A stretch of 64,000 bases of DNA from Bacteroidales bacterium (GTDB taxonomy: Bacteria; Bacteroidota; Bacteroidia; Bacteroidales; UBA932): positions 102,116 through 166,115 of the forward strand of contig JAFVAU010000016.1 in assembly GCA_017480345.1 (NCBI GenBank). Direction: 5' to 3'. The translations under genes and the position numbers were made by a program. Below the pieces are notes generated by a model that searched no databases, was not told where the DNA came from, and saw nothing but the letters and a program-made list of their open reading frames with translations. Numbering within the stretch: the first letter of the stretch is position 1; the number at the start of each line of letters is the position of its first letter. Positions 44,708 to 53,912 of the stretch are shown one piece after another.

Positions 44708-45667
44708 TTATTTCGCGTTATGTGCCCGCGTACGCACGAGGGAACGCAGCTTCCGCACCCGGGGAAGGTCCCGGCAAATCTGACGGAAATACTTGACAGG
44801 CAGCGCACTACGATACCTCACCACCTTCACCAAAGTAAAAAGAATGACAAATAAAAATTTTTCAAAAAGAGGACGGGACACGTCACACAGACGCACCAGG
44901 GAACCCGTGTAATAATTCCGGTACACCACCCGTTCCAAAGGCTCTTCCCGGTACTGCCGGTCATGCACGGCCCGGGCCTCCGGAACAACCCCAACTTTTA
45001 GGCCGCAAAAGTGCAAACGCCGGCACCACTCCCCGTCCTGCCCGTACAGCGGGAAAAGCTCCTCCTCAAAGGGGCCGATTTTCTCCACCACCCGCACCGG
45101 CACCAGCCAATGCGCCGCCATGATGAAGGGCACAGGCTCCGGGGTAGGTACATACTCCAAAACCGCCTCCGCTTCGCTACGGCCCCTCCCACCGACTCTG
45201 TCGGTGGGCCCCTCCCTCTTACATGGCCGAGGGTGGCCATGGGTTTTGGAGCATGCACCTACCCCTGAGCCCGAATACCATTTGGCGAACTGGCGGTCCA
45301 GGTCCTTATAACCTTCAGTCATCTGGAGGGGGCTCAGGACACCATACTCCGGATGGACCTGGGCAGAAGCCACCAGCATTTCCAAGGCACCCGGTTCCAA
45401 CCAAGCATCCTGGTTCAGGAGATAGACGTAGTCATAGCCCTCCCGGATGGCATATTCAAAACCCTTATTATTAGGAATGGAAAATCCTAAATTCTCCGCA
45501 CTTTTTACCAGCACGGCCTGCGGGAAATTCTCCGCCACATAGTCTGCACTTCCGTCCGTGGAAGCATTGTCCCAGACATACAGGTCTGCCGTGACGGAGG
45601 ACAGGCAGCGTTGCAGCCACCGCATCCCGTTATGGGTAACCACTATGACCAGGACCCGCGCAGTCAT
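44708..45667 (-). CDS. GT2 glycosyltransferase carrying an in-frame palindromic-element insertion
   Basis: Cytoplasmic GT-A glycosyltransferase for surface glycan assembly. The start at 45667 (MTARVLVIVVTHNGMRWLQR) overlaps the upstream stop by four bases. Motifs are LYVWDNASTDGSADYVAENF, NLGFSIPNNKGFEYAIREGY, YVYLLNQDAWLEPGA (DxD-like) and FEEELFPLYGQDGEWCRR. Between WYSGSG and PVPFIMAAHWLVP lies a Gly/Arg/Pro-rich stretch of about 40 residues encoded by the palindromic element at 45135-45271. It keeps the frame open but is foreign to the family. Whether the enzyme stays active is uncertain. Last gene of the glnS-flippase-glycosyltransferase unit. Confidence 0.85.
   Translation of the reverse strand: MTARVLVIVVTHNGMRWLQRCLSSVTADLYVWDNASTDGSADYVAENFPQAVLVKSAENLGFSIPNNKGFEYAIREGYDYVYLLNQDAWLEPGALEMLVASAQVHPEYGVLSPLQMTEGYKDLDRQFAKWYSGSGVGACSKTHGHPRPCKREGPTDRVGGRGRSEAEAVLEYVPTPEPVPFIMAAHWLVPVRVVEKIGPFEEELFPLYGQDGEWCRRLHFCGLKVGVVPEARAVHDRQYREEPLERVVYRNYYTGSLVRLCDVSRPLFEKFLFVILFTLVKVVRYRSALPVKYFRQICRDLPRVRKLRSLVRTRAHNAK
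45135..45271. repeat. Structured palindromic element, copy 1 (inside a GT2 gene)
   Basis: Thirty-base arms (45135-45164 and 45242-45271) are inverted copies of each other, 27 of 30 matching. They enclose a 77-base core with a CGCTTCGC hairpin, a perfect 9-base stem CCCACCGAC/GTCGGTGGG, and the segment GGGCCCCTCCCTCTTACA, then TGGCCGAGGGTGGCCATG. The core matches the copy at 52482-52593, while the arms do not. Confidence 0.85.
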
Positions 45668-46485
45668 CGGCCCAGAAGCTTTTTCACAGCCATCCGGAGT
45701 TTCCAGCAGGGGGTATCCGAAGCCTTCCGGAAAGCACGTGCCATGCGGCGGTATTCCACCGTCTCCAAGGGGTCCGGGAAATAGCGGGCATACAGCTCCT
45801 TGTGCTTGTCCCAAAGCTTGTAGCGAATCTCCTTCAGAATCTCGTCAGAGACACCCGTATTGCGGGAATTCCGGCGCGTCCGGTAGTAGAAATACACCTG
45901 AGGAAGCTGGAGCACATGCGGCTCCCCGGGAAGGGCTTGGAAGAGGCTGAGCCAGAAATCCCAGTCTTCGTAACCGTTCACGAAAGAAGTGTCGAAGCCC
46001 GTACCCAGATACAGATCGTGTTCCTGTTTGCGGAAAAAGCAGCTCACATACAGGCAGTTGCGGGACAGCATGGTGGACATGGAGAAGGGCGGCAGGTCCC
46101 AGGAAGTCTCGCTTCCGAAGCGCTCCGCCTTCCCGTAGACCACATTCAGGGAAGGATCCGCTTCCATGGCCTCCACAGCCGCCTTCATGTAGCCGGGCCC
46201 AATCAGGTCATCGGCATCCAGGAAAAGGATATACTTCCCGAAACAACGGTGCATGGCCATGTTGCGGGCGGCCGCCACCCCAATGTTGGAAAGGAGGGGG
46301 ATAAGCGTAAAACGGGCATCCAGCGACACGAACTCGCGAATAACCTCCGTTGAATTGTCGCTGGAGCCGTTCTCCACTACCAGGCATTCCCAGTCCCGGA
46401 AGGTCTGGTCCTGTACGCTTTTAAGGGTCTCCCCCAGATATTCTCCCAGGTTGTAACTGGGAATGATGACACTGACTACGGGCAT
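45664..46485 (-). CDS. GT2 glycosyltransferase
   Basis: Cytoplasmic glycosyltransferase for surface polysaccharide or glycoprotein glycans. The start at 46485 (MPVVSVIIPSYNLGEYLGET) is two bases after the upstream stop and gives 273 residues; the longer frame from 46530 overlaps the upstream gene. GT-A motifs: LVVENGSSDNSTEVI, LSNIGVAAARNMAM, ILFLDADDLIGPGYM (DxD) and NGYEDWDFWLSLFQ (ED acceptor-site motif). It overlaps the next gene by four bases. Donor and acceptor sugars are unknown. Confidence 0.9.
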   Translation of the reverse strand: MPVVSVIIPSYNLGEYLGETLKSVQDQTFRDWECLVVENGSSDNSTEVIREFVSLDARFTLIPLLSNIGVAAARNMAMHRCFGKYILFLDADDLIGPGYMKAAVEAMEADPSLNVVYGKAERFGSETSWDLPPFSMSTMLSRNCLYVSCFFRKQEHDLYLGTGFDTSFVNGYEDWDFWLSLFQALPGEPHVLQLPQVYFYYRTRRNSRNTGVSDEILKEIRYKLWDKHKELYARYFPDPLETVEYRRMARAFRKASDTPCWKLRMAVKKLLGR

Positions 46486-50712: not shown

Positions 50713-52482
50713 ATGAATCACCCCAAAATTGGCATCCGCCCCACCATCGACGGGCGCATGAACGGCGTCCGGGAATCCCTGGAAGACCAGACCATGGGCA
50801 TGGCGAAAGCCGTGGCCAAACTCATCAGCAGCAAACTCCGTTACATTGACGGCGCTCCCGTAGAGTGCGTCATTGCCGACAGCACCATCGGCCGGGTGGC
50901 CGAAACGGCCGCCTGCGCGGAGAAATTCGCCCGCGAGGGTGTGGCCGTCACCATCACCGTCACCCCTTGCTGGTGCTACGGCAGCGAAACCATGGACATG
51001 GACCCTCATACCATCAAGGCCGTCTGGGGCTTCAACGGGACCGAGCGTCCCGGCGCCGTGTATCTGGCCGCCGTCCTCGCCGCCCACGCCCAGAAGGGCC
51101 TCCCCGCCTTCGGCATCTACGGACATGACGTCCAGGACGCTGACAACCAGACCATCCCGGCCGATGTGGAGGAAAAGCTCCTCCGCTTTGCCCGCACCGC
51201 CGTGGCCGCCACCTCCCTGCGGGGCCGGTCGTATCTGTCCATCGGCGCCGTGTGCATGGGCATCGCCGGTTCCATCGTGAACCCGGACTTCTTCGAAGAC
51301 TACCTGGGCATGCGCTGCGAAGGCATCGACGAGGTAGAGATCATCCGTCGCATGGAACGGGGCATCTACGACCACGAGGAGTTCGAAAAAGCGCTCAAGT
51401 GGGCCCAAAAGAACTGCAAGGAGTACGAAGATGTGTGCAACCGCCCGGACCTCAAGAAAACCCGGGAAGAGAAGGACAAGGACTGGGAGTTCGTGGTCAA
51501 GATGGCCATTATCATCAAGGACCTTCTGCAAGGCAATCCCAAGCTCAAGGAAATGGGCTTCGGAGAGGAAGCCCTGGGCCACAACGCCATCCTGGGCGGG
51601 TTCCAGGGCCAGCGCCAGTGGACGGACTTCTATCCCAACGGAGACTTCGCGGAGGCCATCCTCAACTCTTCCTTCGACTGGAACGGCATCCGCAAACCCT
51701 TCGTGCTGGCCACGGAGAACGACTCCCTCAACGGCGTGGCCATGCTCCTGGGGCATCTTGTGGCCCAGACGCCCGCCATTTTTGCCGATGTTCGAACCTA
51801 CTGGAGCCCCGAGGCCGTGGAGCGCGTGACCGGTGAGAAACTTGAGGGCAAGGCGGCCGGCGGCATCATCCACCTCATCAATTCCGGCGCCGCCACGCTG
51901 GACGGCAGCGGCCGCTGCCTCCGCGGCGGCAAGCCCGCAATGAAGCCTTTCTGGGAAATCAGCGAGAAGGAGGCCCAGGACTGCTTAGACGCCACGGTGT
52001 GGGTGCCCGCCAACCGGGAATATTTCCGTGGCGGCGGTTTCTCCTCCAAGTTCCTCACCCACGGCGGCATGCCTTGCACCATGATCCGGGTGAACATGGT
52101 CAAGAATCTGGGGCCGGTGCTCCAGCTGGCCGAAGGCTGGACGGTGGACGTCTCCGAGAAGCAGTTCAAGATCCTGGACGAGCGCACGGACAAGGGCTGG
52201 CCCACCACTTGGTTCGCCCCGCGTCTGGACCCGTCCAAGGCCCCGTTCAAAGACGTATATAGTGTTATGAACAACTGGGGAGCCAACCACGGCGCCATTG
52301 TCTACGGCCACGTGGGGGCAGACCTTATTACCCTCTGCTCCATGCTCCGCATCCCCGTGTGCATGCACAATGTGCCCGACGACCAAATTTTCCGCCCCTC
52401 TACCTGGAGGGCCTTCGGCATGGACCCGGAAGGGGCCGATTACAGAGCCTGCCAGGCATATGGACCGCTTTTCAAAAAATGA
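50713..52482 (+). CDS. fucI: L-fucose isomerase
   Basis: Converts L-fucose to L-fuculose, the first step of fucose catabolism. The 589 residues match the length of E. coli FucI (591). Conserved stretches are [60 protein letters not shown], and the Mn-site residues in [19 protein letters not shown], with the later [17 protein letters not shown] fucose permease follows, separated by a palindromic element. No fuculokinase or fuculose-phosphate aldolase is in the window. A weak -7 (TAACTTTA) lies about 35 bases upstream. Confidence 0.96.
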
Positions 52483-52593
52483 GGATAAGCCTGTCTCTTT
52501 CCAAACCGTCGCTTCGCGACCCCTCCCTAAAGGGCCCCTCCCTCTTACACGGCCGAGGGTGGCCATGGGTTTGGAAAGAGACAGGCTTATCCT
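52482..52593. repeat. Structured palindromic element, copy 2 (between fucI and fucP)
   Basis: Perfect 26-base inverted arms (52482-52507 and 52568-52593) enclose a 60-base core with hairpins GTCGC/GCGAC and CCC/GGG, then GGGCCCCTCCCTCTTACA and CGGCCGAGGGTGGCCATG. The core equals copy 1 in the last 38 bases except one. The arms are unrelated to copy 1. The first arm base is the A of the fucI TGA stop. Confidence 0.88.
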
Positions 52594-52607: not shown

Positions 52608-53912
52608 ATGGATAATAAATCATCAATCTTAAAATACAACGGGGTTAACTATCTGATTCCGTTCATTCTGATTACGGCATGCTTCGCGCTGTGGGGATTC
52701 GCCAATGACATCACCAATCCCATGGTGAAGGCGTTTTCCAAGATTTTCCGCATGAGCGTGACGGAGGGGACCCTTACGCAGGTGGCCTTTTACGGCGGCT
52801 ATTTTGCCATGGCCCTGCCGGCGGCCCTGTTCATCCGCAAGTTCAACTACAAGAGCGGCATCCTCATGGGCCTGGGCCTGTATGCCACGGGCGCATTCCT
52901 CTTCATTGCGGCACGTTCTACGGGCACTTACTGGCCCTTCCTGGTGGCCTATTTCATCCTCACCTGCGGGCTCAGTTTCCTGGAAACCAGCGCCAATCCG
53001 TACATCCTGGCCATGGGCTCTCCCGAGACGGCCACGCGGCGGCTCAACTTTGCCCAGTCGTTCAATCCCATCGGCTCGCTCTGCGGCATGTTCGTGGCCA
53101 TGAACTTCATCCAGGCGCGCCTGAACCCCATGAGTTCGGCCCAGCGTGCCAACCTCCCCGATGCGGAGTTCGCCGCCATGCGCCAGAGCGACCTGGGCAT
53201 CCTCATCAAGCCGTATGTCATCATCGGCCTGGTGATTGTGGCGATGTTCCTCCTCATCCTGCTGATAAAGATGCCGCGGGTGAAGGAGGAGAACAAGGGC
53301 AGCATCCGGGAAACGCTGAGCGACCTGGCGGGCAAAAAACGCTACCGCGAAGGCGTACTGGCGCAGTTCTTCTATGTGGGCGTGCAGATCATGTGCTGGA
53401 CCTTCATCATCCAGTACGGGACGCGCATCTTCATGGAGCGGGGCCTGAGCGAGATTGACGCGGAGGTGTTGAGCCAGCGCTACAACATCGCCGCCATGAT
53501 CATCTTCTGCTGCAGCCGCTTTGTCTGCACCTGGCTCATGAAATACCTTCAGCCCGGCAAAATGCTGCACACCTTCGCCATAGCGGGCATCGGCTGCACC
53601 TTAGGCGTGATTTTCCTGCAGGGCATCGCCGGTCTGTACTGCCTGGTGGCGGTGAGCGCCTGCATGTCCCTGATGTTCCCCACCATCTACGGGATAGCCC
53701 TGGACGGTCTGGGAGAGGACGCCAAGTTCGGGGCCGCCGGCCTCATCATGGCCATCCTGGGCGGCTCCGTGCTGCCTCCGCTGCAGGCCCTCATCATAGA
53801 CCGCGGCACCCTCCTGGGCATGCCCGCCGTGAACGTATCGTTCGTGCTTCCCATGCTTTGCTTCTCAATCATAGCCATTTACGGTTATCGTGTATACAAA
53901 GGTAGGATATAA
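52608..53912 (+). CDS. fucP: L-fucose:H+ symporter (MFS)
   Basis: Twelve-helix major-facilitator importer of L-fucose, 434 residues (E. coli FucP has 438). Family segments: ITACFALWGFANDITNPMVK, FYGGYFAMALPAALFIRKFN, GLSFLETSANPYILAMGSPE (containing the conserved Glu of the proton path), ATRRLNFAQSFNPIGSLCG and VAVSACMSLMFPTIYGIALD. Strict neighbour to fucI supports fucose as substrate, although GlcNAc/glucose permeases are related. The palindromic element between fucI and fucP could modulate the relative expression of the two genes. Confidence 0.93.
   Translation: MDNKSSILKYNGVNYLIPFILITACFALWGFANDITNPMVKAFSKIFRMSVTEGTLTQVAFYGGYFAMALPAALFIRKFNYKSGILMGLGLYATGAFLFIAARSTGTYWPFLVAYFILTCGLSFLETSANPYILAMGSPETATRRLNFAQSFNPIGSLCGMFVAMNFIQARLNPMSSAQRANLPDAEFAAMRQSDLGILIKPYVIIGLVIVAMFLLILLIKMPRVKEENKGSIRETLSDLAGKKRYREGVLAQFFYVGVQIMCWTFIIQYGTRIFMERGLSEIDAEVLSQRYNIAAMIIFCCSRFVCTWLMKYLQPGKMLHTFAIAGIGCTLGVIFLQGIAGLYCLVAVSACMSLMFPTIYGIALDGLGEDAKFGAAGLIMAILGGSVLPPLQALIIDRGTLLGMPAVNVSFVLPMLCFSIIAIYGYRVYKGRI

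Follow-up and report, generated by a model that had tools for sequence, protein, structure and literature searches.

Two short palindromic elements lie in the window, by which we mean the whole 64,000-nucleotide stretch of DNA that was analysed. Element 1 sits in frame within a glycosyltransferase family 2 (GT2) gene and element 2 between an L-fucose isomerase gene and a major facilitator gene, and each consists of a structured core (family 1) between two long inverted arms.

44708–45814 (−): GT2 open reading frame, 368 aa (PF00535), interrupted in frame by element 1
45135–45164 (+): left inverted arm of element 1, 30 nt, locus-specific, complementary to the right arm at 27/30 positions
45165–45241 (+): core of element 1, family 1, from core pattern matches and comparison of copies
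45188–45208 (+): variable inner hairpin of element 1, CCC-ACCGACTCTGTCGGT-GGG, read from the sequence and differing among copies and orthologs
45214–45242 (+): conserved stem and pseudoknot module of element 1, CCCTCT-N5-GGCC-GAGGG-T-GGCC, from compensatory changes among 48 distinct sequences
45242–45271 (+): right inverted arm of element 1, pairing with the left arm at 27/30 positions
50713–52482 (+): L-fucose isomerase gene (PF07881, PF07882, PF02952), upstream of element 2
52482–52507 (+): left inverted arm of element 2, 26 nt, 26/26 complementary
52508–52567 (+): core of element 2, family 1, from sequence, core pattern and folding
52508–52520 (+): hairpin GTCGC-TTC-GCGAC in the core of element 2, read from the sequence
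52525–52534 (+): short inner hairpin CCC-TAAA-GGG of element 2, read from the sequence
52540–52568 (+): conserved stem and pseudoknot module of element 2, from core pattern and pair counts
52568–52593 (+): right inverted arm of element 2, pairing with the left arm at 26/26 positions
52608–53912 (+): major facilitator gene (PF07690), downstream of element 2

An earlier note on this DNA had placed both elements and their arms exactly (30 nt with 27 matching; 26 nt with 26 matching), and the 38-base core end that it described as common to the two, with one difference, was found at 45209–45246 and 52535–52572, against 0 matches in 100 shuffles. When trimmed and folded as single-stranded DNA, element 1 gave z-scores of −3.4 (minus strand) and −4.1 (plus strand), and element 2 of −10.0 (minus) and −8.8 (plus). 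Orthologs of the GT2 gene vary, some carrying an element at the same place and some not: the site is empty in genome G036 but filled in G005 and G061, so that the state of G036 may be a loss. In G177 and G238, two relatives, the site of element 2 is empty or different, and the native arm is not evident from them.

Searches with the core in the window's own genome (G000; 2.22 Mb, 46 contigs) and in related genomes showed a dispersed family, not just the two copies. G000 holds 11 strict core matches, among which loci L010 and L011 look like one site on two contigs, and 13 matches to a looser two-mismatch pattern; own arms are present at 11/11 of the strict matches. Of 400 genomes of one Bacteroidales genus, 179 carry the family-1 core, at most 26 copies being found in a single genome, and none carries a match to a reversed control pattern. 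A stricter core pattern was found in 8 of 61 genomes, every one inside the genus, and in 0 of 24 order-mates from other families. A scan of named genomes gave at least 118 stretches; among the matches listed (80) the sources were Bacteroidales or Bacteroidia MAGs, many of them ruminant-named, and the hosts are gut and rumen Bacteroidales.

The family-1 core (~60–110 nt) combines a stem and a pseudoknot with two more hairpins. In 48 distinct 29-mers, picked by a pattern (up to 4 mismatches, GGG in the loop) biased towards part of the pseudoknot, pairing in the stem and in the loop-to-upstream pseudoknot was present in 509/528 cells with 21 extra pair types, the pseudoknot variants including CCCTC/GAGGG, CCCCC/GGGGG, CCCGC/GCGGG and CCCAC/GTGGG. 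None of 2,000 shuffles reached either value, in a comparison uncorrected for relatedness, and a possible pair 11–26 was excluded from the count (paired in only 14/48). The core is thus a structured module with compensatory changes in its stem and pseudoknot. Rfam 15 covariance models, run on 10 loci with E up to 1, gave no match to the element, leaving a known RNA family unsupported by this search; only L003 (mir-196, sub-threshold) and L009 gave a match, the latter to a TPP riboswitch at L009:1333–1429 (−), outside the copy of the element there but near it. A phage or plasmid origin was likewise unsupported, with 0 viral contigs carrying the pattern and no match in plasmid and phage collections, and no autonomous gene-carrying copy was noticed incidentally among the scored copies. 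Of the 128 non-edge copies, 70 are spanned by an ORF, and the even split between orientations (35 vs 35) disfavours selection on a sense-strand RNA.

The arms are specific to each locus. We scored 136 distinct family-1 copies, leaving out 5 edge copies; orthologous copies are included, so that these are not 136 independent events. The own-arm score was at least 28 in 132/136 copies, whereas a cross-locus control, comparing each left flank with the right flank of a random other copy, stayed at or below 22 in 135/136, the lone exception (88) being untraced and perhaps a near-duplicate locus. Arms were weak in the other four copies, L026, L031, L162 and L179, with scores among these of 15, 16, 20 and 21. 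Arm length has a median of 29 nt (IQR 26–31, 130 copies), and of 88 arm pairs without gaps, 22 match perfectly. Identical arms across copies, as in ordinary terminal inverted repeats, were not found. The earlier claim that arms are unrelated between loci stands in so far as each arm matches only its partner at its own locus, but it was too broad, since a loose pattern is common to the 130 arms: a purine tract 17–25 nt from the core, a pyrimidine tract at 7–10 nt and RAAYC adjoining the core. Pairs of copies illustrate both sides of this specificity. The non-orthologous L029 and L038 have an identical 92-nt core, and the identity extends just 8 nt outward on each side; L007 and L010, in one genome, combine identical or near-identical cores with unrelated arms. 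At orthologous loci, arms are often alike while the inner hairpin differs, and some such loci have different arms.

Mismatches between paired arms are strand-biased. Purine-purine mismatches numbered 63 on the core-antisense strand vs 8 (p = 1e-11), and wobble mismatches were biased to the same strand (84 vs 48, p = 0.002). Mismatches between arms concentrate 5–6 and 22–25 nt away from the core, and the middle shows A>G. This asymmetry means either that the core-antisense strand is the folded one or that the copying makes such errors; a leading/lagging-strand test by local GC skew gave a signal too weak for use (46/87 positive, p 0.04–0.07).

The same habit accompanies a second core. Family 2 (~37 nt) is present in 36/300 genomes, and its 13 copies in G000 are near-identical while their arms differ. 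With one edge copy left out before counting, 47 of the 51 scored family-2 copies lay above the highest cross-locus control (26), and the other four scored 23–25. Since family 2 also carries own-locus arms, mirrored arms are not tied to one core.

Sites without the element indicate which arm is native. The nearest relative found, G231, is 78–93% identical at the compared sites and 57% complete, and contains no pattern match for the family-1 or family-2 core. It retains a family-1 fragment at the L405 site and has therefore lost elements; if the insertions at L003 or L009 are old, it must have lost copies there. Ten G000 sites align across in G231, of which only two are clear (L010 and L406) and four ambiguous. 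The copy at L010 is inserted in frame within a signal peptide, giving MKMAHCF-(insert)-FVLLFLVGISMPSYACTS in G000 with an insertion of 96 nt, and G231 and five further genomes have an uninterrupted signal peptide, e.g. MKTAHFFSLLFLFIAIPSFACTS; this reading replaced an initial minus-strand one. The right arm encodes FVLLFLVG, the hydrophobic part of the signal peptide, which is present in the element-free genomes too, and the left arm, an inverted copy of the right, encodes PTKNSSTKT. Once the left arm and core are removed, G000 and L146, which carries the same insertion, align gap-free to G231. Against native G231 sequence the right arm matches at 19/27 positions and the left at 6/27, and 0 of 20,000 shuffles reach 19.

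At L406, in a gene that we take to be DHH-like, the left arm is native (22/24 vs G231; G177 and G225 have homologous loops), its mirror forming the right arm; the insertion adds 54 nt in frame, and other genomes, without the element, have loops of 21–42 nt here. A deletion between TTCC repeats could be an alternative source of the G231 state. The reverse copy at L406 is bounded by a short inverted repeat (~8 bp, imperfect) already in the target; at L010 the reverse copy is clear and a bounding inverted repeat is not. Direct target duplication was seen at neither L010 nor L406, and a diverged 8–9 nt direct repeat is possible at the L012 (GT2) site. Homologous coding sequence in other species without the element identifies the native side, which therefore does not depend on G231 alone. 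A long palindrome already in place before insertion was absent from G231 at both sites. The inverted copying of a flank that the earlier note proposed is thereby borne out over a full arm at L010 and L406, and we infer it elsewhere. Host codons agree with host sequence in one arm and its mirror in the other: the outer part of one arm consists of conserved codons for LTPTL (L029, presumably murB-like), PSGKL (L035) or DLYG (L111, presumably TrmB-like), with the mirror image in the other arm.

The remaining sites are less clear. In G231 the L003, L008 and L009 sites are ambiguous, holding a quasi-palindrome, bare hairpin or short palindrome: the L008 site (L346) is a bare 13-bp hairpin without core and the L009 site a short palindrome. 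The L406 site in G170 (L470) is likewise a bare hairpin without core. The hairpins at L346 and L470 are possibly excision scars, because G231 keeps a core fragment elsewhere. L403, a candidate clean empty site with its right arm at 22/22 in G231, proved ambiguous and is probably a remnant, since nine genomes lack a loop at this place and a family-2 element with related outer arms occupies it in G294. Other sequence is present in G231 at L395 and L404, and neither arm was found there at L396 and L400. At the L012 (GT2), L003 and L035 sites, empty relatives have the outer part of the arm only, and the inner part is absent. The comparison of L029 with G163 may show a deletion scar and was not counted, only the conserved LTPxL codons being used. 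No insertion was caught within a strain among the genomes compared.

Copying goes on after insertion, arms changing in mirror fashion and cores flipping. In 30 ortholog pairs, chosen for arm similarity and not independent, 77 columns changed in mirrored fashion, 54 in a single arm and 11 otherwise in both arms, and the core was inverted relative to its flanks in 15/30. At the GT2 site the arms of G005 and G061 are related and their cores opposite, and the palindrome extends over the DLYG codons in L111 and not in L155. Since arms change after insertion too, some or all of the copying may follow insertion.

Insertions recur in the same variable protein loops in many species, among them the loops at L035/L006, murB-like L029, RsmH-like L403, TrmB-like L111 and GT2 L001. 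At the L035 gene site, 14 of 23 genomes carry 92–186 nt (mostly these elements) and 9 carry 21–45 nt; 12 of the 14 long inserts are multiples of three by hand count. Turnover is seen at L129, in the TrmB-like gene, where a new element in opposite orientation adjoins the remains of an older L111-type element. The same hot spots carry diverged or different insertions in L249, L259, L466 and L469, the first two of which retain a partial family-1 core, and decayed family-1 pieces persist as in-frame protein loops at L444 (G288) and L438 (G231). L276, an insertion at the L034 site, is built of repeated CTGGACCAGGTCCA units and belongs to a different repeat type. A second palindromic repeat, of the GTCATTCTGAACGAAGTGAAGAATCT type and apparently of the CGTC REP kind, encodes CHSERSEES-like peptides in frame; it occurs in the right flank of L003, at L221, L223 and L047, and in other genomes at the L395, L404, L397 and L406 sites, in the same genes as the element and with some hot spots in common.

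We consider it probable, at about two chances in three, that these are short non-autonomous mobile DNA elements whose target flank is reverse-copied in connection with insertion. The moving unit would be the core, of family 1 or 2, with roughly 5–8 flanking nucleotides. A reverse-complement copy of one target flank (~20–27 nt) would be made on the opposite side of the core, after which synthesis would return to the original template, at L406 rejoining at the ~8 bp imperfect inverted repeat, to yield flank, core and mirrored flank without direct target duplication, the arrangement at L010 and L406. Copying may belong to the insertion itself, with a folded single strand that primes on its own flank, and the same kind of fold-back copying would keep correcting the hairpin, so that the two arms co-evolve, with a core able to invert. 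The fold-back or strand-switching copying offered by the earlier note is supported by these data, and may take place during insertion or soon after it.

The best candidate for opening the target and freeing a 3' end is a putative RAYT-like Y1 (HUH) nuclease. A RAYT-like Y1 gene (~300 aa) is present in 163/179 core-positive vs 133/221 core-negative genomes (uncorrected for relatedness) and, among the 25 genomes with 10 or more copies, in 24. It went undetected in 16 core-positive genomes, one of them with 19 copies, and no family-1 or family-2 core lay beside a RAYT at 10 loci (5 genomes, ~1–2 kb per side). We regard this enzyme as the likeliest mobiliser, with somewhat less than even confidence. 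It is possible, though we hold it doubtful, that the elements represent a distinct transposition class, in which an HUH (RAYT-like) nuclease or similar joins the folded single-stranded core to a target end and snap-back primes ~20–27 nt of synthesis, so that terminal inverted repeats are made anew at each target, as in rolling-hairpin replication, and several unrelated cores use one machinery.

Host template switching could instead act alone, a serious contender though one we would not bet on: a core would insert without arms, and polymerase stalled at its hairpin would later build them by quasipalindrome switching at replication forks. Template switching elsewhere creates reverse-complement repeats and maintains their stems, keeping them perfect, in the cited part of PMC8794818, and L111/L155 together with the mirrored changes represent copying after insertion. 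This account has to face arms in 132/136 copies within a narrow length range (IQR 26–31, n = 130), just 4/136 copies without good arms, and identical-core copies, probably young, that already have full arms. Insertion into the loops of pre-existing long palindromes, the arms being simply the target, we find improbable. The bare 13-bp hairpin (L008) and short palindrome (L009) in G231 and the bare hairpin at L406 in G170 would suit it, as would the REP dimers inside target palindromes described in part of PMC3733652; but element-free species have one arm's sequence only at L010 and L406, and the bare hairpins may be excision scars, G231 retaining a core fragment elsewhere.

A retroelement, in which a reverse transcriptase would copy an RNA core at the target and next jump to the target strand, has some appeal, since a pseudoknotted core and G.U-compatible mismatches fit RNA. 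PF00078 reverse transcriptases, however, showed no association with the core (56/179 core-positive vs 58/221 core-negative genomes, p = 0.32) and occur in 4 of the 25 genomes that have 10 or more copies, which disfavours them as mobiliser, although an enzyme outside PF00078 is possible; with gene orientation also unbiased (35 vs 35), we judge this very unlikely. Least credible is an ordinary MITE whose terminal inverted repeats diverge fast under compensatory hairpin selection. The loose pattern common to arms and the mirrored changes speak for it, against which stand pairs in one genome whose cores are identical or nearly so and whose arms are unrelated (L029/L038, L007/L010), the 13 near-identical family-2 cores of G000 with different arms, and orthologous arms that are often alike across species; host codons inside arms contradict it.

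The elements can be set beside several known systems. They resemble REP/REPIN sequences with their RAYT (TnpA-REP) in being gene-free short hairpin repeats, some in coding sequence, with RAYT-like Y1 genes in the same genomes, and the cited part of PMC6006769 describes atypical flanking structures for Bacteroidetes Y1 subclass 2.6. Unlike RAYT-mobilised REPs, they lack a GT[AG]G-type foot tetranucleotide (at most 0.57 bits beyond the core-proximal 5 nt, 130 arms), their cores do not flank RAYT genes (10 loci) and their arms differ between loci. CGTC-tagged REPs and Rickettsia palindromic elements (RPE) are palindromic in-frame gene insertions, present in Bacteroidetes, with no dedicated transposase known according to the cited part of PMC3733652, which also places REP dimers inside palindromic targets having a consensus in common, unlike the present elements. 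Our elements also insert in frame in protein genes, and similar repeats of the GTCATTCTGA type occupy some of their hot spots, but those palindromes are family-wide and 20–40 bp long whereas the long arms here are locus-specific; a CGTC tag with A-T first pairs on such a palindrome was not found in the compared copies. Bacterial MITEs are similarly non-autonomous, palindromic and dispersed, yet their termini are common to copies, while the present arms are at background across loci (135/136).

Coding palindromes in Nematomorpha mitochondria offer a quasipalindrome template-switch comparison (PMC6649704, in the cited part), and organelle double-hairpin or repetitive hairpin elements are, like the present ones, small mobile hairpins (PMC2800124). 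In quasipalindrome template-switch mutation no foreign core is inserted, unlike here, where the core sits between the copies. Target-derived arms are, to our knowledge, not known for the organelle elements. The folded bottom strand of the integron attC site, recognised by a tyrosine recombinase, may be a further resemblance. We found no mobile element with target-derived inverted arms in open-access papers, the scope of the search, which leaves most subscription papers outside it. The insertion signature, a mobile core with long inverted repeats made from each target, we regard as new, although its ingredients are already known and a strict reader may differ.

The transposition outcomes that we know of are direct target duplication, no duplication or a small deletion. 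An inverted target copy at the flank of a dispersed element would add a new outcome to these, would tie mobile hairpins to quasipalindrome template switching and would explain how near-perfect palindromes come about inside conserved genes. The family would also serve as a naturally assembled set of fold-back copying events that can be compared with element-free relatives, and what moves small bacterial palindromes becomes a directly testable question.
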